64,000 nucleotides of DNA from Turritopsis dohrnii (Eukaryota; Cnidaria; Hydrozoa; Anthoathecata; Oceaniidae): NCBI GenBank assembly GCA_027922465.2, contig BQMF02000066.1, positions 1,054,001 through 1,118,000 on the forward strand. Reading direction: 5' to 3'. How positions within the stretch are numbered: position 1 is the stretch's first letter; every line of letters begins with the position of its first letter. Below, piece after piece: positions 641 through 53,580 of this stretch. The translations under genes and the position numbers were made by a program. A model generated the notes under the pieces. It ran no database searches, was not told the DNA's origin, and saw only the letters and a program-made list of their open reading frames with translations.

Positions 641-1119
641 TTTATTTAATGTTGGTCATAATAAAATAGATACAACAGTAGCTAATAAAAACCAACAATG
701 ATATTGTTTCAGGATTTACAATAAGGACAAGTACAAAAATTAATAGGCAATTTTTTAACTCTATTTTTAAAAATATCTAAAGTTGTCGAGTCTTTTACGT
801 TTTTTGGCAATTGGTCCCAGACTAAACTTCCTACAAAGCTTACCGAATGTATGTCAAATTTAACAGTATTGGTTGGGGGTAAAACAAGTTGTAGCCCTCC
901 TTTTCAGCGAATAGCCTGAAAACTCTGGTACAAAAAGCTCTGACATAAAAGAAGGGTTGAGACCGTTGACGGATTTAAAAATTTTGTGTAAAAATTTCTG
1001 TATGAAAGAGACATGAAGGGTGACTCCCTTTGATAAAGACAGTAGATCTGATAGACTCGAATTAAAATTTTGATAAACTGCAGAGATGAACCCTGTTGAT
1101 GTAGATGTTGCTGGCCTTA
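641..1119 (-). pseudogene. LINE reverse transcriptase, C-terminal remnant (left piece)
   Basis: The minus strand gives a decayed C-terminus of a CR1/L2-like non-LTR retrotransposon ORF2. It includes the usual late block (a VSFVG..VWDQLPKNVKD..TLDIFKNRVKK-like stretch) and ends near 710. Internal stops and frame changes show it is dead. The 3' side runs into a TTATT-rich tail near 610-650. It is the same copy as the piece at 4257-4975; the Harbinger transposon 1120-4253 landed inside it and split it. Confidence 0.75.
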
Positions 1120-1160
1120 AGCCGAATCTCCACTAGGCGGAAAATGTAGCGGCGGGCGAC
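1120..1160 (+). repeat. Harbinger left terminal inverted repeat
   Basis: 41 bp exactly matching the reverse complement of 4213-4253; similarity weakens but continues a little further inward. Preceded by TTA at 1117-1119. Confidence 0.95.
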
Positions 1161-1341
1161 TTTTTCCGCTGCTCCACATGCGCAGTAGTCTACATTGCGC
1201 AATAATTAACGATGTCGCGGCGGAAAAAGTTGAGAGGCGAATAGTAGAAACAAGTTCTACAATTCGCCTCTCGACATTTTCCGCTCGCAAAGAAAATGCC
1301 TTTTTTTTGCTGAGGTAAGCAATTCTTCATAGAAAAACAAG

Positions 1342-2387
1342 ATGGCCTACGAACCAGACAACACGTTCGGTTGTGGTGATGCTGTTAATTTTTTTAATTT
1401 AAATGCTTTGATTGGGGCTTCCCAAATGGTAGGAGCAAGTGATTCACAAGAAAATTCTGAGGAACCCATTGTGCCTGATGAAGATTGTTTTGATAAAGAA
1501 GCTTTCATCGAAGCGTTACGAAGTTACAGATGTCTTTGGGACACAAATGATAGTAATTACAAGAATAGAATCATGAAAGCAAATGCATGGAAAAAGCTTT
1601 CAGACATATTTCAGCAAGATGGTCAGTACTGTATTTTTAATCGTAATTTTTGACAAATAATATAGAATGAATGAAACTACTGAATTCAGGAATTTGTTTA
1701 CAGCCAACGAAGTTGTTTGAATAAATTGAACTTTATATTATTTTTTATGTTTCAGTCATATTTCTCCAAAAAACATTAAAGAATCTCAAGGATAATTTAA
1801 AAAGATGCCTTGATAGAAGACGAGCACTAACTAGATCTGGTGCTGCTCATTCAACGTTGCCAACATGTAAATACTTCGATCAAATGGCTTTTTTGCATGA
1901 ACGGAGTGCAAACAAACCGACGGATAGTAATGTGACATTGCCATTGCAATTTCCAGCTCAAGGGTTGCAGTCTACAACTCAAGACTTACAGTCTGCAACT
2001 CAACAAACAGACTTCCAATCACCACTACCATCAGCAAATCCTTCACCTATTTCTTCTGCACATTCTCCAAGTTCTATTTGCAGTGATGTTCCTTTAAAAT
2101 CACCACCCCTGAAGAGGCGAAGTGCTTTCAAAAGAAAGAGTCAAACAACAATGTCAGATTACAACAGTGATCCATTTTTGAGCCATTTAAAAGATATGAA
2201 CAATGAAATAATTAACTCTGTCAATGAGAAAAGCCAACCAGTTGTTGTTGATGAAGCTACGTCATATTGCAACAGCATTATTCCAGTTTTAAGTGGATTT
2301 TCAAAACGAAAAATGAGAATGGCAAAACTAAAAATAGACGAGCTCCTCTATGACATCGAGTTTGGAGAGCAATATATTGATTTATAG
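1342..2387 (+). CDS. Harbinger-encoded MADF/Myb-like DNA-binding protein
   Basis: Model join(1342..1621,1756..2387). Exon 1 starts MAYEPDNTF and carries the first half of a MADF (Myb/SANT-like) domain (FIEALRSYRCLWDT...AWKKLSDIF). A GT at 1622 and a TTTCAG acceptor ending at 1755 join it in phase to the second half (LQKTLKNLKDNLKRCLD). A low-complexity Q/S/P linker follows. The C-terminus has the lysine/arginine-rich helix usual in these proteins. Harbinger elements encode such a partner, which in studied systems helps import the transposase and bind the termini. It faces the transposase gene tail to tail. No stop or frameshift is seen. Confidence 0.87.
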
Positions 2388-2827
2388 GATATTTATATGT
2401 ATATATTTCTGGATATCAGAAGATATATACCTATTTTCAACATGATCCTGTTGCCAATACTTTTACTTGAAAATCAGTTGCTAATATACCAAAAATTATG
2501 TCATGAAACCTTTGGTACTTAAAAGGTACAATAACGAAACTAGGAATAGTGTGACATATGAAGAATTAATTACCAATATGTTCAAGAAATTTTTAGTTCT
2601 AGTGATACTCTTCCATTTGTCAACAATAATTAATCAACTCTGAAAAACAAGGAATATTATAGAGAAATGATTTTGCTTTGATTTTAATTCAAAATATGCA
2701 TTTCTGACTGATATATTAATTCTTCATGTTTCTGTAAGTCCACCATATCTTATGTTTATCAACAAGTGTGCACATGAAATAAAACTAGTTTACGTTTAAC
2801 AATTAGAATTAAGTACATGTTTTACAG

Positions 2828-4120
2828 CTACTTTGCCCTATTAACATAATCCCACTGCCACTCAACTGCGCCTTCGTTATTGAAATAATCTTTGAATTTA
2901 TCTCTAACCAATTTTGCTTCACCAGTGTAATTATTTGAGGCTCTTGCATTAATAGGTGACAGTCCGTTTATGTTAGCTTCATCTCGTCTCCATTCTCCTA
3001 GTTGTAACCCATTAGGATCTTCCCGGTCAACATAATTTATAGGGCAATAGCTGTAGTCATCGAGAGTGTTATTTTCGGTCATGAGAAAATTGTGTAATAC
3101 AACGGCAGCTTTCGTAATTTCTTTTACCTTTTCTTTTTTAGCAATAATAGGGCGGTGAAATACCCGAAACCTACTTGCCATAATGCCGAACGCGTTTTCA
3201 ATTACCCTTCTTGCTCGACTCAGCCTATAGTTAAAAACCAACTTATCTGTTGATAAATTTGTGAATGGATAGGGTTTCAACATGTGCCTTTTGAGACCAA
3301 AAGCGTCATCAGCTACGAAAACGTAAGGAAGTATTTTTTCACTTCCATTTAGTTTGCTATCATTAGGAATGTTGAGACAATTATTTTCAATGCCGAAACC
3401 CAAGTGGCTATTGTTATACACACTGCCATCACTTTGTCTTCCACTATCACCGATATCAACTAATGTGAATCGGTACTTTGCGTCACAAACGGCCATTAGC
3501 ACTATACTGTGACTTTTTTTGTAGTTAAAGTAACTTGAGGACGAACGAGCAGGAGCGAACATTACAACGTGTTTTCCATCAATAGCACCTATTGCGTTGG
3601 GAAAGTTCCATCTCGCCTCGAATTCGTCAGATTTTTGTTTCCATTCCTCAATGCTACTTGGGGGCTTGATATATTCTCCCAGCACATTCCACATAACAGA
3701 ACAAGTTTCATGAATAATCCGACCAACAGTTGTTGGACTCATTCTGTAGCTAGCTGCAATCGAACTATGGGCATCACCAGTCGTGAGATAACGTAACGTG
3801 ACAGCGAGTCTTTGGCCAGCTGAAATTGGCTCCCGCATTTTCGTTAACCTTTTAGCAATGCTTGGACCTACATATCCAAGAAGTTTCTCTAATGTTCTCG
3901 GTGACATGCGAAAATAATTGAAAAACATTTCATGATCATGAAGCCTCATATCTCGTATGAGATTGTAATATTCACCCTTGGCATTGCGCTCAAGGTATAT
4001 CTTTCGAACCCAAAAACGTCTTTTTGTTGAGCTTGCTTTCCTCTTCTTTAGACAAATAGTTCGATAAATGAAAGCACTTCTTAAAAAAAGTAAGTAGCGT
4101 ATCTTCGATAATTGATTCAT
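2828..4120 (-). CDS. Harbinger DDE transposase (DDE_Tnp_4 type)
   Basis: A 430-residue open frame with no break. The N-terminus has a helix-turn-helix-like segment (SAGQRLAVTLRYLTTG...SIAASYRMSPTTVGRII). Catalytic acids appear in the expected order: Asp in GAIDGKHV, Asp in LVDIGDSGRQSDG and Glu in RRVIENAFGIMASRF. This matches PIF/Harbinger nucleases such as those related to HARBI1. It lies entirely within the TIRs and is convergent with the MADF gene. It would cut and integrate the element at TWA sites. Intact length and motifs suggest function, but activity is not shown. Confidence 0.93.
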   Translation of the reverse strand: MNQLSKIRYLLFLRSAFIYRTICLKKRKASSTKRRFWVRKIYLERNAKGEYYNLIRDMRLHDHEMFFNYFRMSPRTLEKLLGYVGPSIAKRLTKMREPISAGQRLAVTLRYLTTGDAHSSIAASYRMSPTTVGRIIHETCSVMWNVLGEYIKPPSSIEEWKQKSDEFEARWNFPNAIGAIDGKHVVMFAPARSSSSYFNYKKSHSIVLMAVCDAKYRFTLVDIGDSGRQSDGSVYNNSHLGFGIENNCLNIPNDSKLNGSEKILPYVFVADDAFGLKRHMLKPYPFTNLSTDKLVFNYRLSRARRVIENAFGIMASRFRVFHRPIIAKKEKVKEITKAAVVLHNFLMTENNTLDDYSYCPINYVDREDPNGLQLGEWRRDEANINGLSPINARASNNYTGEAKLVRDKFKDYFNNEGAVEWQWDYVNRAK

Positions 4121-4212
4121 GTTGTTTATGTTTGATTCAAAGTAGCGCTCTTTTTAAAGTTTAGTGGAGATTAAACTGTCATTCCGCCGCGGAAAATATC
4201 GAGGCGGAAAAG

Positions 4213-4253
4213 GTCGCCCGCCGCTACATTTTCCGCCTAGTGGAGATTCGGCT
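4213..4253 (-). repeat. Harbinger right terminal inverted repeat
   Basis: Reverse complement of 1120-1160 over 41 bp, followed by the target duplication TTA at 4254-4256. Confidence 0.95.
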
Positions 4254-4256
4254 TTA

Positions 4257-4994: not shown

Positions 4995-7900
4995 GCAATT
5001 TTAATCCTTGGAAAGAAGAAGCCATTTGTCTCAAATATTTAGCTGGAGAATGTGAAGATGCCAGGTTTTGCCATTTGATACATTCGGCAGGAAAACGCCC
5101 TTTCCTATGGCAAAGTAAAAAAGCTAATGATGATAGTTGGGATAATTTTTCCTCCGAAATGAATGAGAAAATTGAGGAAGAGTTTTGTGATCCTTCTAGA
5201 GATTGTTGGAGCAGGTATATACATTGATCCTTACAAAATTATTTTACCACAATAATGTTTATTGTTAAAATTAATAAATTTCTTCAAAAAACTTTATCAA
5301 TTCATAATGATTCGAAAATGTTTTTTTCTAGTTTATCCTTGTTTGTTTTACTTTTCTGTTTGCAGTGATCTTGACATTAGTTGTGAAACATTTGCCACTC
5401 TTTCTGATATAAATTGCAATAACTACAATGACGAAAATGTTGAGATTCGTCGTCTGTCAACAAAGTCATCAGTGAAAGGTCAAAAAGATGACTATGGTCT
5501 AACAGAATGGCAATGGTATTGGAAAGGAGACACTGAATGGCATAAATATAATAATTTGGTACGGTACTTTTGTTTTTATTTTTTAGCTATGAAGAAAACT
5601 CAGGAGAATAACAGAACTTCAAGAAATTGATACTTGTTTTAATATTTTAGAATGAAGAACTAGAGCTTGCATTTCTCAACAATGAGTCATCATTTAAATT
5701 CAAAAGAAAAGAATTCATTTATGTGCTATCATTTGATACTATGGAGCAACAGAATCTAAATCCAAAATACCTAACAAAAAGAGCTGTTCGTAGAAGACCT
5801 CTTTTTAAGACGAAAGAAGATATGAAAAGGTAACTTTTAGGAATCAATGATGTTATTTCATGGTAAAAATAGATCTTGATGTGAGAAAACCAAGCCCTAT
5901 ATGTCAGTCCAAGTATCAGGCAAGGTACAGGTTGAGAAGTGATGCAAATTATTAGAGGCAGATTTTAGAGCTTCATTTTTTGCAAATGATTGAATGCCAA
6001 CAATTACAAAGGCATGGAAGGGCAAATGTTGAGAATGTTTATAATGGACATTTATGTTTTATGTTGATTTGATCTTATTTGAAATATCATCTGATATAAA
6101 TTTGAAGCTATCAGAAAGAATTTAAAGTTATTCTTGTCATATTTTATTCTTAAAATTAGGTTTGACTGATAAAGTTTCTTCTAGGGCAATATCAGTTTTT
6201 CAAACCCCTCCACATTGGCCACTGAATTTTGATCGAGGAGAAAGAATACCCTTAGACTTCAAAAAGCTGAAACAGCTGAAAACTGATTTCCGCAACTCTA
6301 TCAAAATGCCAGTAATTATTTGGGATATTCAAGAAATATGCAACAAAGAACATTATGATAGTTATGAAAGGTAAGATGAAAGAAAATAGTTTACAGCATA
6401 GGCGTTAAATTGGAGTAACATGCTTTGAAATTTGTAATGTGTCTAGGCTGTTCTGCTATATATATCCTTAAAGTTTGTATTGATTTGGATTTAACAAAAG
6501 TAAACAAGTTATTTAGACAAGTTCATGTATTATTGGTGATTAGGGTGTGTTTGCTAACTCATTCAAATCTAATGTTCATTACAATCACCTTATATTAAAA
6601 GTTGACCAAAAAAATACTGTCAAATGTGGTATCATTAATTATTTTTTATTTTCTTACTTTTATTCAAGTTCACCCTTCCCTAGTCAGACTTTCTATTTTG
6701 GCTAGCCGATAGGAACTTTGAATGGAGGTTACAATTTCATTACCTTCGGCTTTCATCACAATTGGGGACAATTTGTTACTAGTCTCTCACCTAGCCCTAT
6801 TATCCCTGAAGCACCAAGAGACTTCATGGGGGAACAGGCTGGTAGCAGTACTGCCAGGGACACGGCTGGAACACTGAAAACTGTTTGAAGAGGGCACATT
6901 TTCGAAATTAGATGTGGTAAAAAACTTTACCCAGATTACTAGTATTTTTATGTTTAACATTGGGACAAAAGATGAATGTAAGGAAAGATAAATGAAATCA
7001 CTTCAACATCAGCTTCGAGTCAGAAATGTTCTTTTTTTGAAATACTCACCTTTGTTTAAAATAATATCCAAACTCTTCAGATTTCCATCATGAAGTTTGT
7101 GTGGAAGATTTTCTGAAGCCAGTGTTGATAAAGGATTACAAATCTCTCCCATCTCCTGGATGGAAAGCTTTTTCTTGCAGTAGTCAATATTAAAAATGTG
7201 ACGATTCGAAGGAAAATCACTACAAGCGATAATAGCGCTCGCATCGAGAAGTAGCGCTAAATTTATCGCTAACATTGACGAACTTAGCGATAAATATAAG
7301 CAGCACAAAAAGCACTTTCAAGAATAATTAATTAATTATTCAAGAATAATTAATTTGTTGCTAATATATTCATCATAAATATTATTCATCTTCCGTGTTT
7401 TTTATACATTTTTCAATTTTGGTTTTGAAGTTTACTTGTGTGTGTCAACACAACCTTTAGACAATCTTTCACATAAACTTCACGAAAAGCCGAAGGAAAC
7501 AGGTGTTATTTTATTTAAACGAAAGTGAGTATTTCAAAAGAGAACTTTCGCAGCTCGTCAAGCCGAAGTTAAAATGTTTTTATTTTTCCCTTCCTACATT
7601 CATACTTCATCCTAATATTGAACCTAAAGACATTATCGATGCAGTGACAGAAGTCAATAATGATCACTAAAAACGTTGTGATCAATTTAATTAAGGGTAC
7701 ATCTCCACCCAGTGCAAGTGAAATGTCTTTCGAAAGAATAATAATAAAGGTTTTGCTATCGAAAAAACTTTTAATGTAATGTGTCTTTAATATTGTAAAA
7801 GTTTTCTCCCAAGAGCTTATAGAATGGCAATCGAACAATCTAGAAAAAAGAATTATCGCAGATGGTTTCTACTTGTGGTTGCTTTCGAACTAACTTCTGT

Positions 7901-10900
7901 ATCTTTAATCTCCAACTGAATATAGGAACCAGTCAATTAAGTTCAATTTAATACACAAGCAGGTGCTCAAATCGAATAACACTGTATTTTAAATTGGCTT
8001 TCAGATTTGTGCTGAAGGTGCCTGAATAACAAATAAAATAAAAAGCGTTTCGGAAACTTTTTATTTCTCGAGAAATATGTCCGCTCGTCTGTTCAGTCAT
8101 AACACAATGAATCAGAGTTTATCATGTCAAAACAAGCGAGTTTGTTTTGTATTTATTGCTATTTGGCGAAACAATAATTAAATCACTGTTATTTGAGAAC
8201 TTCATAAAACAACACATGGTATGTGAAATTGTATAAACAAAAGACTTGAACAAAACTTTTTGACGATAATAACGGTAATCTGTGCCCTTAGAGGATATTA
8301 ATGATATTAACGATTTCACTTTCATCTCATTCGATATTCTGTCCGTTTCACATAATTAATTGAACCAACATTATTATACGAATAATTTTAGTGATAAATC
8401 AAATACTTATCGCTAAAATTTAGCGCTTTTTCGTAAAGAGCGATATTTATAAGCGATAATAGTGATAATGATAAAACTACAAGCGCTAAATTTATCACTA
8501 ATATTGTTACTACATTTGTAAATAAGAACAAATTAGCGCTAAAACCCATTGTTCTTTTAGCGCTATTAGCACTTTGTATAAAGCGCTATTATCGCTTGTA
8601 GTGATTTTCCCTTGAATCGTCACAAATGGACAGTTGGAAAAGCAGGTTCCAAATGGTATTACCTGCCATGCAACGATTGAGCACGATTGAGCAGAGGAGT
8701 GTTGGCATGGAGTGCTAGTACCCACATTTTTCTTTCAAAGCCTTTAAGACCTATACTGCAATTAGTCAAAATATTCTGGAGGGTTCCTACACACTTTTTG
8801 GGGGAACTTTGTTAGACGTTTAAAATTAGTTCCATGTATATAACTCTAGGAGAAAAACATTGTGAAGATCCTTTATTTGAATTGCATTGCATCTTCATCT
8901 AAGAACATATGATTATTGAACATACTCCAAATGTTTATAATTATACTTATTTGATTATGATGGCGATGATGATGATGATGATAATGATGACGATTTATAT
9001 CATCACCTGGAAAATGTGTTACCTGGGATACTTTTCAAGTTTTCAAGTTATTTAAGTTTAAGTGAATGGTCAGAAGACATAAATAACACATAGTCTATCA
9101 ACGGTAATAGGTGCGGTGAGAAGTGTTTCATGTTTTGTATTAGCAGCCACTTACATCAGATTTTTTGTTTACCGCGAATCATTGCATTACATCCCCAATC
9201 AAATGCAGCCGTTAGAATGTCTAGAGATCCAATAGGGGTAACTGACGTTTTTGAGACTGCGATATTGGTAATGAAGTGATGAAAATTCTGGGTCTATATT
9301 TTTTAGGGACGGATCTGTGACACCTTTAAAATATTTGATCAGGTGGTTGTAGCAAAACAATCTTGTGCATTTTTTATTGGTTTTTGGAGCTCCATAACAT
9401 ACTTGCCACACTTTTCAACAACCATTATGTGATAACCTACCACTATTTGATATAGAAATCACGTTGTAAATTATTGTTTACAATGTACAATAATATTTGT
9501 GCTAACTATTAACATGACCTAAGAGGCTTCTAAGTGAAAAGACTGTCTTTATGTTTCAGAAAGAAAATGATCTTACAAGAGAAACTAGATGATGTCAACG
9601 AGAAGTTTCTTTACCATGGTACTGATTATTCTGTCGTCAATGCAATTTGTGCCCAAAATTTTGATTGGCGATTATGTGGCAAAAATCAAACTGCATATGG
9701 AAAAGGTAGTTATTTTTCTACAAGTGCATCCTACAGTCATCGTTACTCAACAAGTGACATCTCTGGTTTTCGTTATATGTTTCTTGCATCAATCTTGGCT
9801 GGGCGTTCTACTGTTGTAAGTCATAAATTCTTTTGAGTATTTACTTCTTTGTTTATCTCAAGCAGGGATCATACTGGCTATGAGTTTAATCATGGAATTA
9901 TTTTTTTCAGGATTTTCTAGTCAGCTCACTGTCTTGCAAATTTGTTAACATTTCATTTACTGGATCGTTACATCAAATGTATGTGACTTCAAAATTCAAA
10001 CAGAAAGAAAAATTGCAAACTTAAGCAATACGCATATAAAATCTTTAAATCAATGCTTCTCAGAAACAAAATATTTAAGTACATAGACCGTATATTTTTT
10101 TAACAATTTTTGCTATACTTCATCATATCCCGTCATTTTTTCTCCAAATTTTTCTTCTGTGACTGTTATCATTTTGTACCATTACGACCTAACGTACTAT
10201 TACTGACTTAAAAAAATATATCGCAACCAATTAATTACAGGAACTGATGTAATTTACCGGCAATATCTCAGATGATAGATAATTTATTTGGTAAGGAAGG
10301 TCATTGAGAAGAGCAGCACAATACTGATGTGGACCTAATGTATGTATATGTAAATGAAAAAAATACATTATAAACTAAAACATTTCATGTCAAACCAGGA
10401 AAATGAGAGAGAATAAGAAATCGCATATTAAAACAAGTATTTTGAATTCATACATGTTTTTCTTCAATCGAAGTATCTGTCGATACACTGTCACATACCT
10501 TCATAATCCCAAATCTGAAAATTAACACAAATTCTGGTCACAACAATATGTATCAATATTAACCAAAATACCACAGATATCTGAAATTTTATTCTTTAGT
10601 TCAATTGGCAGCATCGGTTTGCAGTGCTTTTGATTTTCAGACTCTTATGTTGGAATGTGTTTGACTTGCATTCATAATTACCGAAATTGTTATTCCCGAT
10701 TTTTTCACTCCATGTTAATGTGTATTTTTATTTTCTTTATGTTTTGATGTTATCTACCTTGCTATTAATGTTGCAGTGTATTGAATTTTGATTTCAGGGA
10801 CATTCAAAGTTGAAAAGGCCTCCTGAAGTAAATTCATCAACACATGACTTGTATGATAGTTGTGTGAACAACCTGCGGAATCCTTCTATCTACGTCATTT

Positions 10901-10977
10901 TCGAAAGAGACCAATGTTATCCACGTTATTTGATTACCTATGAGGATACCTTAATTGGGTATGATGATGAAATGTAA
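4995..10977 (+). CDS. ZAP/PARP12-like mono-ADP-ribosyltransferase, 3' half (gene A)
   Basis: Exons 4995-5214, 5366-5558, 5651-5829, 6185-6370, 9560-9815 and 10798-10977 (TAA) join in phase. Exon lengths match gene B nearly exactly (220, 193, 179/176, 186, 256, 180/162). Order: one CCCH finger (CLKYLAGECEDARFCHLIH), first WWE region (RPFLWQSKKANDDSWDNF), second WWE (LTEWQWYWKGDTEWHKY), then the PARP catalytic domain. The triad residues are His in FLYHGTDYS, Tyr in GKGSYFS and Ile in NPSIYVIF. H-Y-I is typical of mono-ADP-ribosylating PARPs (PARP10-12, 14-16), unlike catalytically dead ZAP. WWE regions of this type bind ADP-ribose. The exons for the N-terminal fingers are not in the window; a LINE plus Harbinger sits in the preceding intron. 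The intron 6371-9559 holds a DNA transposon. Confidence 0.88.
6371..7197. other. Intron of gene A, no gene seen
   Basis: Left part of the long intron between the fourth and fifth visible exons. It shows no coding similarity and ends at the TIR element at 7198. Confidence 0.5.
7198..8623. mobile_element. TIR DNA element with AGCGCTA-rich ends (copy 1)
   Basis: The ends are inverted repeats, about 40 bp with a few mismatches: GTGACGATTCGAAGGAAAAT at 7198 and its complement at 8583-8623. Both flanks carry AAAT, a possible 4-bp target duplication. Inside each end are many short AGCGCTA / TAGCGATAA palindromic units (7225-7290 and 8390-8610). No transposase was recognised; the ORFs on either strand look like noise. 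A truncated, inverted copy lies at 52399-52909. The superfamily is unknown. Confidence 0.8.
8624..9559. other. Remainder of gene A intron
   Basis: Non-coding apart from the trinucleotide microsatellite near 8953-8994. It ends in a pyrimidine-rich TTTCAG acceptor at 9559. Confidence 0.5.
8953..8994 (+). repeat. Imperfect GAT trinucleotide microsatellite
   Basis: About 13 GAT-like units with GCG, AAT and GAC variants, inside an intron of gene A. Confidence 0.85.
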
Positions 10978-12616
10978 AGAAAAATCACTTTCTATGTTGG
11001 ATGTGGCTTTACATGTGTATTCACAATGTTTCAAAATATTTCTGAAAGATCCACAACTACTCTTCATTAGAAGTCTCAAATCAAGCTTCATTTCATGGAT
11101 GCAATTTTATTTAATTTTGTTGCTAGAAAGGTTTATTCACTTTTGTTCAAGTAAAGAAACTGTACTTTGATTTCTAATATGATGTTTTTTGCTAACTAAA
11201 TATGGATATTTTGAGGGTTGTGGGGTATTGGCCATGTAAATCAATATACATATAAGAAAAGCACATGAAAATTGATTTGCACAAGAATTTCTTGCAGAGA
11301 TTGATGCTTGTCAGATGGCAAAATGTTTGAATATATAATAACATCTTAATTTTATGAACCACCTTTTCACGTCAAAGGGAGCCACTGTTGATAAGGAAAT
11401 CTTTTGTGTTCCTTTGCAGTCTTTGCTATTAAACGAATTTGTAAATTTTATTGTTTAGTGTTTTCTATATATTTGTTTTTATTATTTATTTTAATATAAT
11501 TGGGTGGTTTATGTATTTTTTAAAGGAAAATTTGATTATTGTACAGGCTGTCTTTTTTCTATAACATTGGCCATAGTACAGATTTGTAGATGAAAGGAAC
11601 CTGGAAATGAATTTGCAAATGACTCAACTTGGACTTTTTCTATTTGTCAAAAGAGACTATTGATGTATTTTCATATAGTATTGTGATCCTGCTAAAGTAA
11701 AAGTTGTAAAAAGTATTGAATTGGGAAAGCACATTTTAAATCACGGTTTTAATTTGAAAGTATAAAATATTTACAAAATACACATTGAATACTGCCCACT
11801 TTCATGAGGATCATGTCTTTTTTACTGCACACAAATGCTGAGAACTTAGTAGTCACCCTAGGTTTGGATAGTGAGAGCACTGGGTATAATGATTTCTTCT
11901 TTCTAGTAAGTTTCTGCCAAGGATTATTTATTCATCATTGTTTAGGTGTTCATTTTTGTACCAGTCTTTACTAAAATTTCAAATACGCTTTCAGTGGGAA
12001 AACACTTATTACGAACGGCTAACAAGAGCGATAAAACTCCCTCTCAATTAGTTTATTACTTAAAAAGTGCTGTTTGAAATTAAAATGAAATGAGTTAATA
12101 AAAAGCCTTTTTGTTGCCTTTTATATTTCAACAAAGTTTTCAGTTTCATTTTTAATTGATTTCAGTGATATTTTTGGATATTGTTTAATGTTTTAAAAAT
12201 ATATACATACTTTATTTTTTGCCGTAATAAATTTAATGCAATTCTGCTTTTCAGTTGGGATGTATTTCTTGTATCTCAGAAATCCTAAAGAATGAATTTA
12301 AGATACCTAGATACGGTTATACGTAGGCACTCAAACCTTTCTATGATGGTTTATTAAGATAAAGTAAAATTTACATATCCAAATACATATATCCAATGAC
12401 ATTATTTAAGATGAAAACACCCTTAACAAAACATGTTCTGCCATGGTCACCTATATACAGTTTGTATTTGTTGCAGTCAACTCGTCAGATTAAAGTTAAA
12501 ACTATGGCGATGCTGATACTTAGAGGACATGCAATATAGTTCAATTTGTTATCTGTCTTAAGCTATAACCTTTAACTTCCTTTAGATGTTTTGCTAAAAA
12601 CTCAGAATATAAAATC
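10978..12616. other. Intergenic region with duplicated 3' flank of gene A
   Basis: No gene was seen. Blocks at about 11210-11350 and 11460-11660 match the 3' flank of gene B at about 21520-21640 and 22440-22640 (for example AAAATTGATTTGCACAAGAA in both). The tandem duplication that made A and B therefore included at least about 0.7 kb of downstream DNA. Polyadenylation signals cannot be assigned with confidence. Confidence 0.6.
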
Positions 12617-14490
12617 ATGGGTATTATTTTTTCTGTTTTGCCAAAGTTTCAAGTAAGTTCATAATTACGGTTATTTTAATTCATAAAAAAAGTCTATTAT
12701 TATGAACCCTTTTTGCCTTTGTGTGAACATTCAATGTTTTTTAACAATTTTAAAGAAAATTTTTGTGTTATTGGACTGTGGAATTTATGATGATGTTTCC
12801 AGTCACATCTTAGAGTATTCACATTCTGAACTGAAATATTAAATGATTGTTCACTGATTTATTTCAAAGCTTTGGTTAAATTGAGATTGAGTTTTAACGC
12901 AAGATTCTCCAGAGTCTCCAGATTTTTAAAAATGTTGTAGTTGGAAAAGGGCGAATCTTTTCATTAATTTTCATCATAGAAAAAAATAACAACCAAAGAA
13001 ATACTGCAGCACATTGAAGAAGTGAGTTATTCCATCCAAAATTAAAAAATATATGCTTTTTCACATTCTCTTCAAAATCACAATATTGTGCTTATCTTTT
13101 TTAGGATATAGAAAAATGTCATTCAACCCTGCAACAGATTCGAAGACTAAAAAACACAGCAGACCTATTCTTTTTAACTCACTCTTTCTTAATTTGTTTT
13201 GTTGCTGTGCTAGTTTCCTTTTTATCATCCCTTCCACGGAAATGGACAGATCGATTCCTGTACATACTTCCGTTTTTAGCAGTTCTTATTTTGTAAGTTA
13301 GAATTTATGATTTGTAGATCAATATTTTATTTCATTCCTATCATTCATATTTTTTCTTATTTCAGAGTGTTTGTTTCAAGGAAAATTTTGGATTTTTGCT
13401 TTGTTAGAGTATGTAAGTATGTATTTACATCATAAATCAGGTTTTTTTATAGCTTAATACGAAACTTATGAGTGCTTACTTATCTTTCCCACAAAGTATG
13501 TACAATAATTATCATAATTCAGACCGTATTAGTTATACGTCACAATTTTTTGATTCTCAAAGCGTGTCTACAATGTGGCAATCGAAGAAGATGATCATGT
13601 GCCAAAGGAGAATTATATAAAGTACATTATTTTTGTTGGAAAGCGTTTTTAAGGAATTTGATTTAAAAATTTATCATCAATGAAAATATATTTTTACAAT
13701 ATCAAATAAGTAGATATTAAATTAAGTTAGCAATTATCAGATGCGTTATGGGCAAAGAATAGCCTGTTATCAAAAAGTTTCATCTTGATAGTTTCCAAGA
13801 AGTGATTCCTTCTTTTCAACTTATATGTGTATAATAAATGTTGAGTTTGACACTTCTTATTTTGATGTCAAGAAAGGCAGCAAAGACTAAGAAGGAAATG
13901 ATAATAATGAACTCTTTCCTATATTGCATATGCTGCTGATAATGGTAAAATTAATTATTCATCTTTCCTGGTAAGCTCATTTTGTCAAAAACCATGTTCA
14001 AAATTCATAAGTGAAGTTGTAAATTAACGTCATCAATTTTGCTAAAAATAAAATCAGGAAAGGAATTTATTTCCCTATGTGTTTTAACTTACAGTGTTTA
14101 TTGATTTTAACGGTAAATAAACTCAAAGAACTTCAAAACAAAAAGAAGAAGTTGGTGAGTTTAAATTTCACGCAAGTCATTTGAAATTATATTGCAAACC
14201 AAAATGATGGAATTTTCTTTTTGTAGCTGGAGAACGTCATGGAAACCTTCAAAGGTTCTAAAGAGTTACTTAATGAATATAATCTGGATAGTGAACAGCA
14301 GGAGGTAATGGATTTACTTGAAATCAATAACATTAATTCTTACCTTTTGAAGTGCTTCTTGATGGCTAGCAACTCTGTGTAATATATACTTTATTATCTG
14401 AAAACATCGATTGAAAGGCCCTAATGGACGATGTCTGATTTGTTATACAGGTAGATGGTCAAGAAAAGCCATTGACTACAGGAGGTCATG
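12617..14490 (+). other. Lunapark-type N-terminal module of gene B
   Basis: Seven small exons. MGIIFS fits the N-myristoylation pattern (Gly2, Ser6) and resembles the lunapark start. TTKEILQHIEE and DIEKCHSTLQQIRRL match the cytosolic helix before the membrane hairpin. Two hydrophobic segments flank a short charged loop (PRKWTDR). LKELQNKKKKL and LENVMETFKGSKELLNEY match lunapark's post-hairpin coiled coil. The C-terminal lunapark zinc ribbon is not seen between 14304 and 15341. In lunapark this part shapes and marks ER three-way junctions. The last exon ends in phase 1 and the zinc-finger exon begins with two bases, so the join is in frame. Confidence 0.78.
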
Positions 14491-17400
14491 GTATTGTTAT
14501 GTTTTATTTCCTATTTTGAAATGTTTCAATAGGATTTGTAAAGCCATGTCAGAGGGAGGTGCAGAATATTATGTTTGGAATACCATGGTTGCCAATCTAC
14601 CTTGAGGATAACATTGTTGAGATGTGCACTCACTGTGAATTGGTATTGAATTAAAGTTAGTCTTTAAGAATGCAAACCCAAAGACCCGAAGCTTTCCATT
14701 AAAAATGAAAAGAACTCATTTGTTTCAGATCTTATTCTTATAGGATTTTTTGGCATTTCCTTTAAATTTGTAGCTGTACATGTCACAAATTTACTTAGTG
14801 TCAACATTTACTGTGTGGACCAATTACCCTAGTAATTGTTAGAAAGTGGAACGAATTCAGCTCATTATGATTATATGTGATATATAATAGAAGCTGTTAA
14901 AGGATTTTATCGTGATGAGTACTATCTTTAATTATTTTCGTGTTGAAAATCCCATATAGTTGCGGCATGTAATGTTATAATTGAATATATTGTACTAATT
15001 GAGCTTTGATTAAATTGGAAGGTTTCAGTTTTTGCCAATTACCAAACAATCAAGCAATTGATTTGAGATTCTTCAGAAGTAAACTGCACATCAGAAACAG
15101 CAGACTGTATTGCACCTTAAATGGTCCACTGCTGTTCGTTTAGCAGAGGCCTTGTTGGTAATGAAAAATCATAAGTTGTAATGGATTTTTTATTTGTGCC
15201 CAAAAGAAATCTGACCATGTATTTCATACCAGTGGGAAAAATTTCTTTGTTTATGAAGTAAATTCCATATGTTCCACTTATGTAAAGAATTTTTGATGTG
15301 ATATTTGTTTTTAATGTCTAATACTTTTCTTCTCTATTAGTGCTTTCTTCAAGGGTTCCTGAACCAACGGAACAAGATGTCATTTTTGATATGTTGAAAG
15401 AAGGAAAAACCAGCCTGCCTCTCAAATCACTAACTTACTTTGATAATGAACGAAAGACTGAAGAATGGTTTATCAAATATCAAGATGTTTTTCGTTTAGA
15501 AAGTACTGATGATACAAAAACTGTTCACATTTGTGTTGAAGAAGTAAGACCATGCCCCTATTACTGGTCTAAAATGGGAAATAGTGGGTGCTCGGAAATT
15601 TACTGTGGTCTGTTTCATGTTTGCTACAATTTCCTATTCCACAAAAGACACAACAAACGAACATGCAAGTTTAACCATGACCTACAGGATTCACACAATC
15701 AAATGGTATTATCTAATTTGCAGTTCACCAGGTTAACTGAAACACATATAATGGAGTTATTAAGAGTTCGTTATCCATTTGTTTGCTTGGATTATAATAA
15801 TGGTATATGCTTGTTGACTGAAAAGTCATGCACAAAACTTCATGTATGTTATGATTATTTGAATGGTAATTGTAAAAAACTGGAAAGCCTTTGTAAATTC
15901 AAACACCAGAGTGCATTTAGCAGCCAGCAAGCTCTAGACATGATGGAAAGTTATAATATTGAATCAGAAGAATTCAAATTTTGTATCATCTCACCTGAAA
16001 GGAAATATGATATAAACAAGATGCTTCTTTCAAATTCAGGTAAGATAAATTGTCTGTTTTGATTTACATCAATGTTGAATGTGTGGTACTGCATTCATTA
16101 TCGAAGATGTTTGTTAGCAAGGATTTCTTTTTTCGAATTGCTTTTTTAAATAATGATATTTCCCTTTTTCTGTCTTTTTGGAAGTTTTAAAAGAAAAAGA
16201 AAATAGAGTAAAATCGTTATTGGGAAAGTCCTTCTATAAATTGAACGAGTATGGTATCCATTGTGGTATCGCAGTGTTAGGCTCTAAATAAGAAAAGGAG
16301 GTTTTGAGGTCTGCTTTGAAGGCTCTCAATGGGGTAAAATATTCTGGTAGCTTTGTAAATTAGTCATAGAAAGCACTCTAAAAGGGATTGTTTCGAAATA
16401 GCTAGAACACAATTGGGAAAATGATCGGTGTTCTTCATTGAGAAAACGCCTTTCAGCAATCTCTACTATGTCTGGCTTGGAAAAGGTTGGGAACAGTCTG
16501 TAAAATGTTTGAAAGAAAAAAGACATCACATTCAATCACTTGCATTACCCTGTAATAAACGAGAGATTTTACCTTAAATTTTAATTGTGAAGTATTTTGG
16601 TATTCGAGTTACTTTTGTGGATTATATTTAGACTGTTTTAATCCTTGGAAAGAAGAAGCCATTTGTCTCCAGAATCTCGCTGGTGAATGTGAAGATTCTA
16701 GTTTCTGTCATTTGATACATTCACCAAGAAAACGTCCTTATGTATGGCAAAGTAAATTGGCAAATGAGGATGGGTGGGATAATTTTCCCTTTGAATTGAA
16801 TGAAAAAATGGAAGAAGAGTTTTGTGATTCTTCTAGAGATTCGTGGAGCAGGTATTTTGATTCTAACAAAACTTTTCCAGCGACAGTGTTAATTGTTATT
16901 GAAATACTATTTATAGTAATCACAATAATTTTTGTTGTAAATCAACAGAAATCAATTCAAAAATAAATTATAAACTGTATTGTGTCTCTCTTATTTATAA
17001 CAGCGATCTTGCCATTAGTTGTGAATCATTTGCAACTCTTTCTGATATAAATTGCAATAAATACAATGACGAAAATGTTGAGATTCGTCGTCTGTCAACA
17101 AAGTCATCAGTGAAAGGTCAGAAAGATGACTATGGTCTAACAGAATGGCAATGGTATTGGAAAGGAGACACAGAATGGCATAAATATGATAATTTGGTAT
17201 GATGTTTGTGTTTTTGTGATTTATCTATGAAGATAACTTATGAAAATGTTAGAACTTTAAGAAATTGATGAAGTTATTTATATAAGCTTGATATTGTTAT
17301 TGTTTTAATATTTAAAGGAAGAACTAGAGCTGGCATTTCTCAACGGTGAGCCATCATTGAAGTTCAAAAATAAAACATTCGATTACGTTTTGTCATTTGA

Positions 17401-20400
17401 TGTTATGGAGCAACAGAATCAAGATCCAAGATACCTAACAAAGAGAGCTGTTCGTAGAAGGCCTGTTTTTAAAACTAAAGAAGATATGAAAAGGTAACTT
17501 TTATATTGTTATTTCTTGAACAAAATGGAAAAGCTTGCTACCTGGAAAGCAACGCTTATGTGTAGTCTCAAGAAACAATATCAGCCAATACATAGGTAGA
17601 TGCAATCGAGAAAAATGTTAGACTTGCATTTTTAGCAAATGATAGGAATTCCAGAGTAATAGAATAGAATAAATGTTTACAATGTTGGAAACATTGGTGT
17701 AAACATAACTGACATTTTGGATTTCTATCTTCGTTTTTTCGTGATTTAATTGTATGCAAAAGATCATCTAATACATTAATATTTCTAGCTTCTACAAAGA
17801 ATTTTATTTATTCTTATGCTGTTTTTGTTTCCCTAAAATTAGGCTTCACTATTAAAGTTTTTTCTAGACCAATATCAGTTTTTAAAACACCTGCACATTG
17901 GCCACTAAATCACGATCGAGGAGGCAGAATATCGTTGGACTTAGTTACGTTTGTACCACTGGAATTTTATTTTCAACACTCCATCAATATGGTAGTAATG
18001 ATTGCAGATATTCAAGAAATATGCAACAAAGAACATTATGATAGTTATGAAAGGTAATATGAAAAAAAAATAGTAGATAATGTATTTTCACGTCTATTTT
18101 CACGTCGAGAGACCTGAAACTCCGAGTAGTAAAAAGTTGTTTTTATTTCTCATAAAATAAATTAATAAATACAGTAGACTCTCTCTAACTCAAATCTCGA
18201 AGGGGAAAACAAAATCGTTCGAATCATGGAGAGTTCGAGTTATTGAGAGTGATATCACTAGGTTTTAGCTTGAAGGGACCCAATGATTCAGTTCGAATTA
18301 TGGAGAGTTCAAGTAATAGAAAGTCGAATTATAGAGAGTCCACTGTAGTATATAATATATGCTTAAAATTTGGATAGTATTCTTTCAAATCTGTAATCTA
18401 CTCAGACTTTTGCAATACACATCCATACATCCATACAAATGTGGCTGGGGTGTCTTTTCCTGTTATGTTCTCTGTTATACCGAGAAGGTTTTCACAATTT
18501 TATCGAAAGCTATCTGGTATAGTGTACGTAGAACCGTTTTGTGTCGACGTGAATGTTATTATTATTTTTTATTTTGATATTGAGTCCTCTATCTTTGCTT
18601 ATGTAAAATATTTTTTATTTGAAATCCCAGGCAAAAATGAGATATCAGGATGAAACTCATTCACTTTAGCTGTTTAAACTACAAGCTGTGCGTAATAAAT
18701 TCATTTCCAGTAGCTACATAACATACCACTATCTGATAAAGAAATCATGCCATGAATCATTGTTTATAACGAATCTTTGTAAACAAAAGGCCAATCCGAT
18801 ACAATATTTGTATTGACATTAAACATGGCCTAAAAGACTTATTTTTATTTATTTTTCAGAAAGAAAATGATCCTACAAGAGAAACTAGGTGATGTCAACG
18901 AGAAGCTGCTTTACCATGGCACTGATCATTCTGTCGTAGATAGAATCTGTGCCCAGAATTTTGATTGGCGACTATGTGGCAAACATGGAACTGCGTTTGG
19001 AAAAGGGAGTTATTTTTCCACAACTGCATCCTATAGCCATAGTTACGCAACAATGGACAGGCAGGGTTATCGTTACATGTTTCTTGCATCTATCTTGGCT
19101 GGGCGTTCTACTGTTGTAAGTTATTAATTCTTTTGTTGTATAAGTGTACCTGTCAATATTATGCAAATACTATTCCAATACTCGTGTTTGTAAGCATTAA
19201 GACCTGATCCTTTACAACAGCAGTTAAATGTTAGTTCGTTAGTGAGTACAATGAATGATTTCTAGATAATCATTTTACAGCATGCTATAGTTTAGAATTT
19301 CAAAGTTTTCTTCTTGTTATTGTCATTTTAATTTGCTCCCTTGGGCCTGTTACTAGTCAGTCAGACTGTACATAATGACGTGAGGGTCACGTGACATTGA
19401 AAGTTTGAAAAGGTTTCATGAAAATTGATCCATTTGTCATATGTTTTCTTTCTAAACATTGCATTAATGAAGTTTGTCTTTGGAAAACGTGTTTCTGTCT
19501 CTAATGTATATGCTGATTAGTATTTTATATTTTACTTCATTCTATTCATGTTTATGGCAGCCACGGAGCAGGAAGGCTAAGGGAGCTATAGCCCGGCCAA
19601 TAATTTTATCGTAAATAGTAACTTTCATAGTAATTTTCAATATAATGAAAGTTTAAGAACATTTTAACAGTGTCGCGATTGTAAATCCCCACAACGTCGA
19701 GCAGATAAATGAATATTGTAGATATTGTCAACAGTTTTGTACGTAACGACAACAGACATCATTTTGGAGAACTAATCTTGTGTAACTTATATGCAAATAA
19801 TATACATTTCTTCTTTCCTGACGTAATTTCCAGTCCCTTACCGTTCGATTCCCTTATTTCAAGCACATAAAGCCTGTAAGACTCCACCTTTATTAACAAA
19901 CATATCATATTTTACTCGATGAATTCCAGCGATACAACTTGTATTTATGGGCCGTAAAAGAGCTTCTTAATTAGGAAAAACTGTACGGTTTTAGCCATTC
20001 TAGACCAATAAAATTCTAAACATTTTCTGGGCCCTAGTCAGCTCTCCCAAACAAAATTCCGCTCCGCGATTCCTGATTCATACTTCCATTTCAGCCTTAT
20101 TTTTTATCAAAGACTTTTTGATCAGTTTTAAATCAAACCTTTTTATTTGATAAACTATTTATAACCGTTCAGGTGGTATAACTTTTTAAAGAAAACAATA
20201 AGCCCTAAGACCGATTTGAAGCTCCCTTCTTGTTGAATTTGATAGCATAGATTCCTTTTCATTGATAGATGTCTTACTCCCAGAAAATATGCCAATTTTT
20301 CATTCAATGTCCTTTCTTATAAAATGTTTGTGAAAGAAAACAGCTATTTATTCCTGTTTGTTCCTGTTATTCTAATTCAGAAAAACCTGTAAGTAAATGT

Positions 20401-21172
20401 AACTTCATAAAAATTGATCAGTTTGTAAACGAAAATGTAACATAAATCATGAATACTTTTAAAGAAAAACCAAAAAATGCACTTTATGATGGCGTAGAAA
20501 GATTAACAGTACTTTTGAATGTTTAAAGCATATGATTTACGTATGTAATCATTGTACTATCTGAAAGGATCAATATGAACTTAATGTTATTTTCTGCCCC
20601 AAAAATAGAAAGATGTCGTAATGAAGTTTATTGGGATTATTATACAGTATGTTTCAGAATGTTGGAAACGGGAAATACAAAACTGTTTATTTCAATGAGT
20701 ATACCGAATTTCGAAATAATTTTAACATCAATAGAAAGCCCTTTTCAACTTGTATACTTTGTATGAAAAATGAAGAAATGGTTTAAGAAAAAATAAGGGA
20801 ATGTCTTGGGGAAATGTCGTTAAATTTTTAATGGTCGATTAACACAGTTTAATTAAAATAATTGACACGTACATAAGCGACATACAAAGAACACCAAGTG
20901 CACCATTTTACTTCACTTCTATACTGTAATGTTTACTTTGATTTCTTTCATGTTTTGATTTTTATCCATCTTGATGTTAATTTTTCAATGATAATGAATT
21001 TTCATTTCAGGGACATCTAAGTTTTGTGAGGCCTCCTGAAGTAGATGCGTCAACGCATGACTTATACGAAAGTTGCGTGAACAACCTGCGTGATCCTTCT
21101 ATCTACGTCATTTTCGATATAAACCAATGTTATCCACGATATTTGATTAAGTACCGTGTCGTGGGTGAATAA
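12617..21172 (+). CDS. Lunapark-ZAP-PARP fusion, predicted ER-anchored mono-ADP-ribosyltransferase (gene B)
   Basis: Exons 12617-12652, 12980-13021, 13105-13292, 13366-13420, 14095-14154, 14227-14304, 14451-14490, 15341-16039, 16632-16851, 17004-17196, 17318-17493, 17868-18053, 18860-19115 and 21011-21172. They give one open frame of 796 residues. Residues 1-166 are lunapark-like (MGIIFS start, membrane segments about 47-69 and 76-93, then a coiled coil). About 167-235 are winged-helix-like; 238-370 hold four CCCH fingers as in the ZAP N-terminus; 400-537 hold a fifth CCCH and the WWE regions, as in the ZAP central domain; the rest is PARP catalytic with His677, Tyr709 and Ile774. The exon at 15341 has no usable ATG at its start, so upstream exons are needed. 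The weakest junction is 13420/14095: a better donor at 13413 would break the frame. Alternatively, lunapark and PARP are two genes. Confidence 0.72.
15341..16039 (+). other. Gene B exon: winged helix plus four CCCH fingers (ZAP N-terminal-like)
   Basis: The exon begins after a CTATTAG acceptor. About 65 residues form a winged-helix-like unit (DVIFDMLKEG...EEWFIKYQDVFRL). Four cysteine/histidine sets follow, starting CPYYW, CYNFLFHKR, CLDYNNGIC and CYDYLNGNC, with a conserved SHNQMVLSN-type linker after the second. This order is that of the RNA-binding N-terminus of ZAP (ZC3HAV1) and PARP12, which in vertebrate ZAP recognises CpG-containing viral RNA. RNA specificity here is unknown. Confidence 0.88.
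18172..18345. mobile_element. 174-bp pogo/Tigger-like MITE
   Basis: The ends CAGTAGACTCTCTCTAACTC and GAATTATAGAGAGTCCACTG are imperfect inverted repeats. The element is flanked by TA on both sides (18170-18171 and 18346-18347), and internal GAGAGTTCGA-type units recur. This is the usual form of Tc1/mariner or pogo MITEs. It sits in gene B's intron before the catalytic exon. Confidence 0.8.
19557..20078. mobile_element. Possible non-autonomous TIR element
   Basis: CAGCCACGGAGCAGGAAGG at 19558 faces an imperfect complement, AATTCCGCTCCGCGATTCCTG, at 20056-20076. The CAG...CGGAGC ends recall hAT MITEs, but no clear target duplication was found. It lies in the last intron of gene B. Confidence 0.35.
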
Positions 21173-32374: not shown

Positions 32375-32652
32375 AGGCCCTGTTAGACGATAAATTAATC
32401 GCTAAACTATTCCATAAAGTTACTTAAAATAAAATAGTTTATGAAATAATTTATCGTGTATTGTATCGGAAACTATTCAAAAAAATACTGACATAAATAT
32501 ACTATTCTAGTCAGTAAAAGTCAGTAAAAGTCAGTAAAAGTTATTATAGAAAAGCACCGAAGGAAGGGCCAAGGCTGTAGTTGCCCGATAAACAGCCCTA
32601 CCCACTCAAATTGTTGAGTGGCCGGTTTTTTGTCCGGATTGGTGTGGACAAG

Positions 32653-34053
32653 ATGACTGATGAGATGACTGAAAAAGAGAATGCAATAAAGAAAATTATT
32701 ATGGAACTTTGCTTGGGAGCACCGAGTATAGACATCAAATCATGTTTACAAGCGTACCAATATGGTAAAGATCTTCAGCAAATCAAGAAAGGTTTTAGTA
32801 GTTTTAATAAATCAGTATTGGAAGAGACATTACGTTATCTCAAAGTACCTGATGATCCTCAAGACTATACTAAACCAGCTAATATACACACATTGGTTTG
32901 TCGAATTCAAAACCTTCTTCCTGATACATGCCACATTTGTGATGAGACTTACGTTATTTCACTCCAAGATGAACCTTTGCTGGAGTGTGTTATATGTGGA
33001 CAAGACGTGCATAGACCATGTTTCTTACAGAAATTGGGTGAAATAGACCCGGACATCGACTCATCATCGGTACAAGCTATAATTAACCCATACAACATAA
33101 AAAGTATGTACTATATTTGTTACCATTGTGCTGATAAAACGATACCCCAAAAACATGATGGAATGAAAAAGAGGAGAAAACGATCGATTTTAGATACAGT
33201 GACACATTCAACTGAACTTAATGAAGGTGACAAAAATAAAACTGTAGATACAAATTTTACAGAAAATACTCAAGAGCACATAGTACTACTACCACAAAAC
33301 ACAAAGGACTATGAAAATACCATAGAGCATGTTACTAAAACTGACATTGACAACGATCCTCCTAAAAGAAACAAGGACGGAATTTGTAAATTCTATTTAA
33401 GAGGAAATTGCAGATTTGGTATAGCAGGGAAAGACTGTCCATTTACTCATCCAAAGGCCTGTACCAAACTCCTAAAGCATGGCGATAAAGGAGACAGAGG
33501 TTGCAAAAAAGGAATTTCATGTGCCTTTTTTCACCCCCGAATGTGTGCAAGTTCTATAAAATGGGGGCAGTGCTTAGATAGACGATGTAAATACACCCAT
33601 GTCAAAGGAACAAGACGCACCAAACCTACGCATGAGCAAAAATCGTATACCAACAATAATAACCAACATGCTGATACATCAGAAAATCGCCAAAACCCTC
33701 GGAGAGTTAATAACACAGCAAATGAAAGGGCGGATTTTTTAGAGCTAATAAGAAACTTCAAGCACGAAATCCTGAAGGAGTTCTCCAACAAAGTGACCGA
33801 ACTTACAACCAGTCACAGAACGAATGCTGTACACCAACCACCTTACCAGCAACAAAATCACCTCTCACCACCCCAGCACCTACCACAACAGCAAATACCA
33901 CCACCATTTCAACCAAACACAATGATAGACAATTACACTGTAAGACCAACAGTACCGAACACGTGGATTCCAACCCAAGCATCCCAGAGGATACAACCAG
34001 TTTCAAACCTGTGGATGCAGCCGCCACCACAATTTTCCTCCCGAATGTTTTAG
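32653..34053 (+). CDS. LINE ORF1 protein with PHD-like finger and CCCH fingers
   Basis: The start is taken at the first ATG (MTDEMTEKENA); the frame is open further upstream. A PHD-like cross-brace follows at about residues 95-160 (CHICDE, CVICGQDVHRPC, CYHCAD). Three CCCH-like fingers come next, in the region starting CKFYLRGNC and ending CKYTHV. Then comes a Q/P-rich tail. ORF1 proteins of CR1-group LINEs often carry zinc fingers and are thought to bind the element's RNA. It overlaps ORF2 by 91 nt in another frame. Its CCCH fingers are not close to those of genes A-C. Confidence 0.85.
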   Translation: MTDEMTEKENAIKKIIMELCLGAPSIDIKSCLQAYQYGKDLQQIKKGFSSFNKSVLEETLRYLKVPDDPQDYTKPANIHTLVCRIQNLLPDTCHICDETYVISLQDEPLLECVICGQDVHRPCFLQKLGEIDPDIDSSSVQAIINPYNIKSMYYICYHCADKTIPQKHDGMKKRRKRSILDTVTHSTELNEGDKNKTVDTNFTENTQEHIVLLPQNTKDYENTIEHVTKTDIDNDPPKRNKDGICKFYLRGNCRFGIAGKDCPFTHPKACTKLLKHGDKGDRGCKKGISCAFFHPRMCASSIKWGQCLDRRCKYTHVKGTRRTKPTHEQKSYTNNNNQHADTSENRQNPRRVNNTANERADFLELIRNFKHEILKEFSNKVTELTTSHRTNAVHQPPYQQQNHLSPPQHLPQQQIPPPFQPNTMIDNYTVRPTVPNTWIPTQASQRIQPVSNLWMQPPPQFSSRMF

Positions 34054-37000: not shown

Positions 37001-37088
37001 ACAACTACCTGGCTATGCAACTGGAAATGAAAAATCAAATGCTATTTTCGATATGAATAGGGCTGGTTTCAACGAAATGGGCCGATGA
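33963..37088 (+). CDS. LINE ORF2: AP-type endonuclease and reverse transcriptase
   Basis: Open for 1041 codons. Endonuclease motifs: ALTETWL (catalytic Glu), GDFNLPHYDW (Asp/Asn) and a late ISHHHLIQF where the family normally has S-D-H, so one catalytic Asp seems replaced. RT motifs: NYRPVSLTSHLIKIFEKVL, YLDFSKAFDKVDH, GVPQGSVLGPLLF and the FADD catalytic box (SFADDTRMS), then the thumb (KDLGVIMENDCTF). The frame has no ATG before the endonuclease domain. ORF2 is probably made by frameshifting or reinitiation from ORF1, or an indel has hidden its start. Confidence 0.93.
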   Translation: MDSNPSIPEDTTSFKPVDAAATTIFLPNVLDSFSILNVQGLKPQTVLSKIPYVKETLYEKKQLFIALTETWLHKHREAELVIEGYKLFRADRNREKKKRGRSSGGVAFYIKEEIAVSCEKLIEYSNGVNELLVLYSKMHNITLAIIYRQPDDSTHGHPSKEKEFQEILQKLKECFDMCGQTSDIFICGDFNLPHYDWLNMTCKDGISTSERNMITMLRDFTDALHMQQIVEASTHKDGNTLDLLFTNNKQLIHSYNIFPNSHTISHHHLIQFNTHTLTKRSTLPKTTNRTPVNSFERYNLFDTNIDWEKLRNSFSFIDYAVEFETLEPVEQLNKILKMSNDIISTEAPTRPSYDDKQKSKIPKDRRVLMRKRNKLRKKFIKTKTELQKSKIFSELITIEVRLNNSRDKQLINSERKATNAIKDNPKYFFAYTKKHCKVKSRVGPLYNKDEKTFTSDSLEMANLLQKQYQTVFSTPLDIDIDTEFPELLFNDIEFKTSDFLEAIESLKPNAAAGPEGLPAKLLLECKEFFAEFLRKFWKNCFDKGLTPSMLRTHFVTPIYKGGNQGDPANYRPVSLTSHLIKIFEKVLKTKIVEFLDSQQLLNDTQHGFRKGRSCLSQLLVHFDRILTELQNGHNVDTIYLDFSKAFDKVDHKLIITKLNQLGIGGKIAKWIYSFLINRKQYVLVDGKMSHSADVVSGVPQGSVLGPLLFLLMIGDIDKNTIYTFLSSFADDTRMSKAISNLIDTFKLQSDLNTAFKWTLENNMKLNGDKFEHLHYGNDLDIRKLSLYLDNQGKRITSKEFVKDLGVIMENDCTFTKQINSIITKTKELSAWVLRTFHTREKLILLTLWKSLIIPYFDYCSPLWSPTKKGDIQEIEKVQKAFVNNINEVRHLNYWEQLHKLGLYSLERRRERYQVIYVWCILEGTVPNFSHFNPESGDQIGGISSYIHNRHGRLCSIPPVSRGRFQGAMYGSFRYRGPKLFNCLPKTLRDMTRCSKDLFKKELDVYLKTVADYPQLPGYATGNEKSNAIFDMNRAGFNEMGR

Positions 37089-53468: not shown

Positions 53469-53580
53469 ATGTTTCAGGTTTTATCGTACCCGAGTGTGAT
53501 TTTTAGGGTACATCTATGAATGTGCTTCTTAAGCAATTAAGACTTTTTTCCTACTTTAGGATGTTATTGAAGCAACAAAA

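Follow-up and report, generated by a model that had tools for sequence, protein, structure and literature searches.

Human lunapark is reported to be N-myristoylated, with both of its ends in the cytosol (PMC3817238). The lunapark N-terminus is described as needed, and the C-terminus as dispensable, for junction location (PMC6588657), while truncation before the zinc finger is described elsewhere as abolishing junction location (PMC5021524). Among antiviral members of the PARP family, ZAP-L is reported to be dependent on its farnesylation site and on association with membranes to act against viruses (PMC8568172). ZAP/PARP12-related genes are reported to be present in cnidarians, and invertebrate genomes typically hold one copy (PMC8102003).

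Here we describe a locus of the hydrozoan Turritopsis dohrnii in which these two families meet. The stretch of DNA analysed (the window) comprises 64,000 nucleotides (C66:1054001-1118000), and the genome searched for relatives of its genes comprises 436 Mb in 891 contigs. COX1, on contig C880, reads well when TGA is taken as W, AGA as R and ATA as I at conserved sites, a code pointing to a non-bilaterian animal (for example a cnidarian or a sponge). As read from the sequence, the locus is a phase-matched lunapark-PARP12 chimera, open on one haplotype and joined by a predicted splice, and we consider it somewhat more likely than not that it represents a real fused gene. The predicted gene has 14 exons, from 12617-12652 through 21011-21172, all with GT-AG sites and matching phases, and on the window haplotype (C66) their open frame encodes 792 aa without a stop. 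A sequence-only reading of the window had described seven small exons, and these are present with their GT-AG sites and phases; the span that it gave, 12617..16039, has the right start and ends too early, six more exons carrying the predicted gene to 21172. The features are as follows.

12617..12652, + strand: lunapark-derived exon 1, MGIIFSVLPKFQ, MGxxxS start; homologous to exon 1 of the lunapark gene on C153
12980..13021, + strand: lunapark-derived exon 2, first coiled-coil region; 8-bp deletion in the C537 allele
13105..13292, + strand: lunapark-derived exon 3, membrane segment 1 and start of segment 2
13366..13408, + strand: lunapark-derived exon 4, remainder of membrane segment 2; end 12 bp shorter than in the parent, donor read as GTATGT
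14095..14154, + strand: lunapark-derived exon 5, second coiled-coil region; parental acceptor AACAG is AACGG here
14227..14304, + strand: lunapark-derived exon 6
14451..14490, + strand: lunapark-derived exon 7; phase-1 donor homologous to the exon 7 donor of the parent
14491..15340, + strand: putative fusion intron, made up of remnants of lunapark intron 7 and of the beginning of exon 8, followed by unrelated sequence and by the M2 relic
15162..15298, + strand: relic (137 bp, with stops) of the second CCCH module exon (M2) of the paralogs
15341..16039, + strand: CCCH exon (module M3), phase-1 start
16632..16851, + strand: exon 9, overlapping the sub-threshold WWE_4 match; 61-bp deletion in the C537 allele
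17004..17196, + strand: WWE exon a
17318..17493, + strand: WWE exon b
17868..18053, + strand: exon between the WWE and PARP domains
18860..19115, + strand: PARP catalytic exon (YHGT...GKGSYF)
21011..21172, + strand: final PARP-domain exon (DPSIYVIF) and stop

Exon 1 is preceded by a leader (12586-12616) with a possible acceptor (CTTTAG) just 5' of it. The leader opens with an ATG-x-x-TAA frame, also found in the lunapark parent and in another lunapark copy of the array (copy 1, below); the gene may thus have a 5' untranslated intron or a tiny upstream frame.

The full lunapark gene lies on the minus strand of contig C153, with eleven predicted exons, and its protein carries the lunapark zinc ribbon (PF10058, E 8.5e-20). 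Residues 1-152 of the predicted fusion are identical to it at 98 of 151 aligned residues, with an alignment score of 447 (maximum of 64 in 500 shuffles), which bears out the lunapark identity first proposed for this N-terminus. The MGxxxS start in exon 1 is presumably a myristoylation-type motif. Both the window copy and the C153 parent have two hydrophobic segments, and coiled coils, judged by homology, would flank the membrane hairpin of the window copy. The absence of a zinc ribbon, noted earlier for the sequence just downstream, extends to the whole array: the genome-wide search for PF10058 returns one match, on C153. Window exons 1-7 are a copy of the N-terminal half of this gene, the only one in the genome recognisable as lunapark. 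Since the introns were copied together with exons 1-7, the copy must have arisen at the DNA level.

Across the lunapark exons, dS between window and parent is 0.66. Exon 7 of both is phase 1 with a GTAT donor, and the acceptor AG of parental exon 8 aligns to AA in the window. Exons 4 and 5 of the window haplotype require a changed splice pair, converting the parent's RISRTS to CLLILTV before the second coiled-coil region; here an acceptor 5' of the parental exon 5 site is assumed, because of the AACAG to AACGG change.

In the PARP half, the predicted protein contains a Pfam PARP domain (E 2e-25), and the best solved-structure match of its catalytic part is PARP12 (E 1e-41). The stretches YHGT, GKGSYF and DPSIYVIF align with PARP12, and we take the residues of the H-Y-I triad to lie within them, the H-Y-I pattern being that of mono-ADP-ribosyltransferases. 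WWE gives one match above cut-off (E 3e-10) and a second match, to WWE_4, below it (E 0.001), and zf-CCCH_PARP12 (E 7e-6, 26.5 bits) falls just below the 27-bit cut-off. The CCCH exon is related to the ZAP N-terminal domain (E 5e-5), with solved-structure matches beginning at exon residue 88, and contains a conserved PTEQDVIxxML stretch, which we assume to be part of the winged helix. The PARP12-type catalytic domain, CCCH fingers, WWE domain and H-Y-I residues would place the predicted protein in the PARP12/ZAP-like family.

The window gene sits in a tandem array of PARP12/ZAP-like genes, a family that has undergone a large expansion in this genome compared with the one copy reported as typical of invertebrates (PMC8102003). 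The upstream neighbour gene (L040 and window 4995-10974) has three module exons, M1 (which opens MASQF), M2 and M3. The CCCH exon of the window gene is the M3 of this set and has 66 matches in the genome, a number that includes fragments, M1/M2 modules and haplotigs. Copies of the lunapark N-terminal exons are found on C66 at about 981.7, 1039.6 and 1066.6 kb (the last being that of the window), with counterparts on contig C537. From its corresponding genes in the same order, we infer that C537 is the other haplotype.

Several further features of the surroundings were recorded. The WWE and PARP exons at 4995-10974 belong to the upstream neighbour. Its M1-M3 exons (L040) fall immediately beyond the window edge, and its M1 region, interrupted by a stop on C66, is open over 450 aa on C537. 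A 3.1-kb DNA transposon (1119-4254) separates the CCCH exon of this gene from its exon at 4995. The transposon has terminal inverted repeats of 51 bp (98% complementary), and its DDE_Tnp_4 transposase frame (2828-4120) is read from the minus strand. A retrotransposon at 32581-37088 has a pair of long open frames that overlap, one encoding a CCCH-like finger (sub-threshold) and the other endonuclease and reverse transcriptase domains. At 53560-54951, a 463-aa open frame encodes PARP12-type CCCH modules; it probably represents the 5' end of a gene that has its M3 exon beyond the window, at C66:1121756.

The window gene has lost the upstream module exons present in the neighbouring paralog. No match to the M1 start exon is found between C66:1050.2k and 1107.6k, and M2 survives as the 137-bp relic at 15162-15298, with three stops (a slightly longer match has four on C66 and three on C537). 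Because M1 is absent and M2 decayed while the CCCH exon is under purifying selection, the gene needs another start, and the lunapark exons are the obvious one. As had been claimed, the donor of exon 7 (14490) is phase 1, and the CCCH exon opens at 15341 with TG in the matching phase 1. All nine of the closest M3 loci (L009-L017, window and allele included) begin AG|TG in phase 1, and L018-L021 and L023-L026 look phase 1 by eye (19 loci surveyed, L022 and L027 not counted). The junction donor ATG|GTATTG has a leave-one-out score of 4.8, tied with the predicted exon 4 donor as the lowest of 28; four other donors score 4.9-5.3 and the parental exon 7 donor 6.7. It is thus at the weak end and not an outlier, and the junction acceptor (6.1, leave-one-out) is twelfth lowest of 28.

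The interval between exon 7 and the CCCH exon bears on the leading alternative, namely that two genes adjoin here. One would encode a short stand-alone lunapark N-terminal protein, a hairpin lacking the zinc ribbon, with its end in exon 7 or shortly beyond; the other would be a PARP gene that starts at an unrecognised short exon or at ATG 15391. In favour of this reading, the frame past exon 7, read on without splicing, stops after nine more codons, and two genes would account equally well for the constraint on the lunapark part. The interval 14491-15340 also contains two candidate start exons with an ATG and a phase-1 donor (14780-14831 and 15121-15157), but this is about the number expected by chance (mean of 1.3 in 200 shuffles). 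Variant polyadenylation signals occur in the gap (ATTAAA at 14650, 14698 and 15009; AGTAAA at 15078 and 15257), but AATAAA is absent from it. The ATG at 15391, the first in-frame one of the CCCH exon (17th full codon), lies inside PTEQDVIxxML, a stretch conserved in close paralogs that an internal start would remove; the earlier reading held that such a start would cut into the winged helix. The phase-1 acceptor common to the nine closest M3 loci also argues against this alternative, although one of these loci, L011, has an in-frame ATG 5' of its M3 acceptor. We regard two separate genes as unlikely.

Purifying selection on both the lunapark and PARP halves is supported by several comparisons of sequence. 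For the lunapark exons (NG86; the codon alignment drops one codon in exon 5), dN/dS is 0.28 between window and parent (Fisher p 8e-8), 0.41 between window and array copy 1 (p 2e-4) and 0.33 between copy 1 and parent; solved from the three pairs, the window branch has dN/dS of about 0.35 and dS of about 0.23. For M3, pairwise dN/dS against five paralogs is 0.28-0.46, and the window branch (from pairs with L011 and L012) has dS of about 0.24 and dN/dS of about 0.29. For the WWE-PARP part, dN/dS against the neighbour gene is 0.36. Window-specific codon changes number 8 synonymous and 11 nonsynonymous in the lunapark part (binomial p 0.036), 16 and 17 in M3 (p 1e-4), and 14 and 18 in WWE-PARP (p 0.004).

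Sorted by codon position, window-specific changes are 21/12/18 in M3 (of 204/215/186 sites) and 17/10/16 in the four WWE-side exons; this weak third-position excess tempers the selection argument. Of the 137 bases of the M2 relic, 22 carry window-specific changes (10/6/6 by codon position; third sequence, L031), and at positions 1 and 2 the relic has evolved faster than M3 (16/~92 vs 33/419, p 0.01). In neutral simulations at assumed rates of 0.16 or 0.25, the frame was still open in 1 of 2000 draws for M3, 1 of 2000 for lunapark exons 1-6 and 0 of 2000 for WWE-PARP.

These data also weigh on a second alternative, that a fusion was perhaps once made and is now a decaying pseudogene, still open by chance on the window haplotype. 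The C537 allele carries two frameshifting deletions, of 8 bp in exon 2 and 61 bp in exon 9, the junction donor is at the weak end of the 28 scored, and the other array copies are wholly or partly degenerate. On C66, exons 1-7 of copy 1 are open, and its exon 4 has lost the same 12 bp as that of the window; on C537 copy 1 has a frame shift in exon 3, and its exons 5-7 were not found within the stretch examined there. The CCCH exon that follows copy 1, at a distance of about 17 kb on C66, is affected on both contigs by an internal deletion that changes the frame. Copy 2 contains stops and is situated 5' of the neighbour gene, a gene with a start exon of its own. Against decay stand the 792 codons without a stop on the window haplotype, the rarity of open frames among the neutral draws, the bias of window-specific changes to synonymous in all three parts, and the identity of the M3 exon at 699/699 bases between C66 and C537. 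The junction sites are unchanged on C537. A relic seems to us slightly less credible even than two genes. An assembly artefact that put the lunapark exons next to a PARP gene is highly improbable, for although separated haplotigs such as this assembly holds may presumably be misjoined, C537 shows the same layout with its own substitutions and indels, and dS between copy and parent is 0.66.

Of the fusion reading originally proposed, what the analysis upholds is the lunapark N-terminus, the phase-compatible junction, the loss of upstream exons, purifying selection on both halves and an open frame through PARP; splicing, expression, membrane placement and an antiviral role are inferred. In the favoured reading, that of a fused gene, a DNA segment with lunapark exons 1-7 and their introns was copied into the PARP12/ZAP-like array, where three copies are found today. 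The window PARP gene is without M1 and retains M2 as a relic, and the lunapark exons would have taken over as its 5' end, as they could because the phase-1 donor of exon 7 fits the phase-1 acceptor of the family's CCCH exon. The predicted 792-aa product would carry an N-terminal myristoyl group and be anchored in the ER membrane through the lunapark hairpin, placing the CCCH RNA-binding fingers, WWE and H-Y-I mono-ADP-ribosyltransferase domain in the cytosol. Its likely job would be RNA capture and ADP-ribosylation of targets at ER membranes, the replication place of many RNA viruses. By analogy with lunapark, ER anchoring of the product, if made, is likely; junction placement is less settled, because the reports on lunapark disagree (PMC6588657, PMC5021524). 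That exon shuffling has produced an ER-tethered antiviral PARP, the lunapark hairpin carrying CCCH-WWE-PARP to ER tubules and junctions, is a tentative proposal.

A search with residues 1-260 against a set of 5.8 billion proteins returned 1869 candidates, none with E <= 0.001 and no lunapark or ZAP relative of any kind; the search scored not even ordinary lunapark, and therefore says nothing about other animals or uniqueness. In open-licence PubMed Central, nothing was found joining lunapark with PARP12 or with zinc finger antiviral protein. If expressed, the fusion would give a protein of the PARP12/ZAP type an integral ER anchor taken from another gene, and domain swaps could then test whether membrane placement drives the antiviral function of PARPs. 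The fusion is also relevant to the question of which parts of lunapark junction targeting needs, the point on which the published accounts differ, and offers a clear case of exon shuffling in which phase match, native exon loss and continued selection are readable from one genome.

Compared with known systems, the predicted fusion shares with lunapark (LNPK / Lnp1) the MGxxxS start, two membrane segments, flanking coiled-coil regions and the exon layout through exon 7, the parent gene being in the same genome; it differs in being without the linker exons and zinc ribbon, in place of which PARP12-like exons come next. With PARP12 it shares CCCH fingers, WWE and a PARP catalytic domain with the H-Y-I residues, but has an N-terminal membrane anchor replacing the native start, and one CCCH module exon versus three in the neighbouring paralog. 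Its CCCH region is related to the N-terminal domain of ZAP-L (PARP13), which is likewise membrane-dependent, through C-terminal S-farnesylation according to PMC8568172; the anchor of the predicted fusion, in contrast, is an N-terminal hairpin and not a prenyl tail. Its catalytic residues look active by alignment, whereas the ZAP PARP domain is reported to be catalytically inactive (PMC8568172). The proposed ER tethering could, though we hold this with some doubt, be a route to membranes independent of ZAP-L farnesylation.
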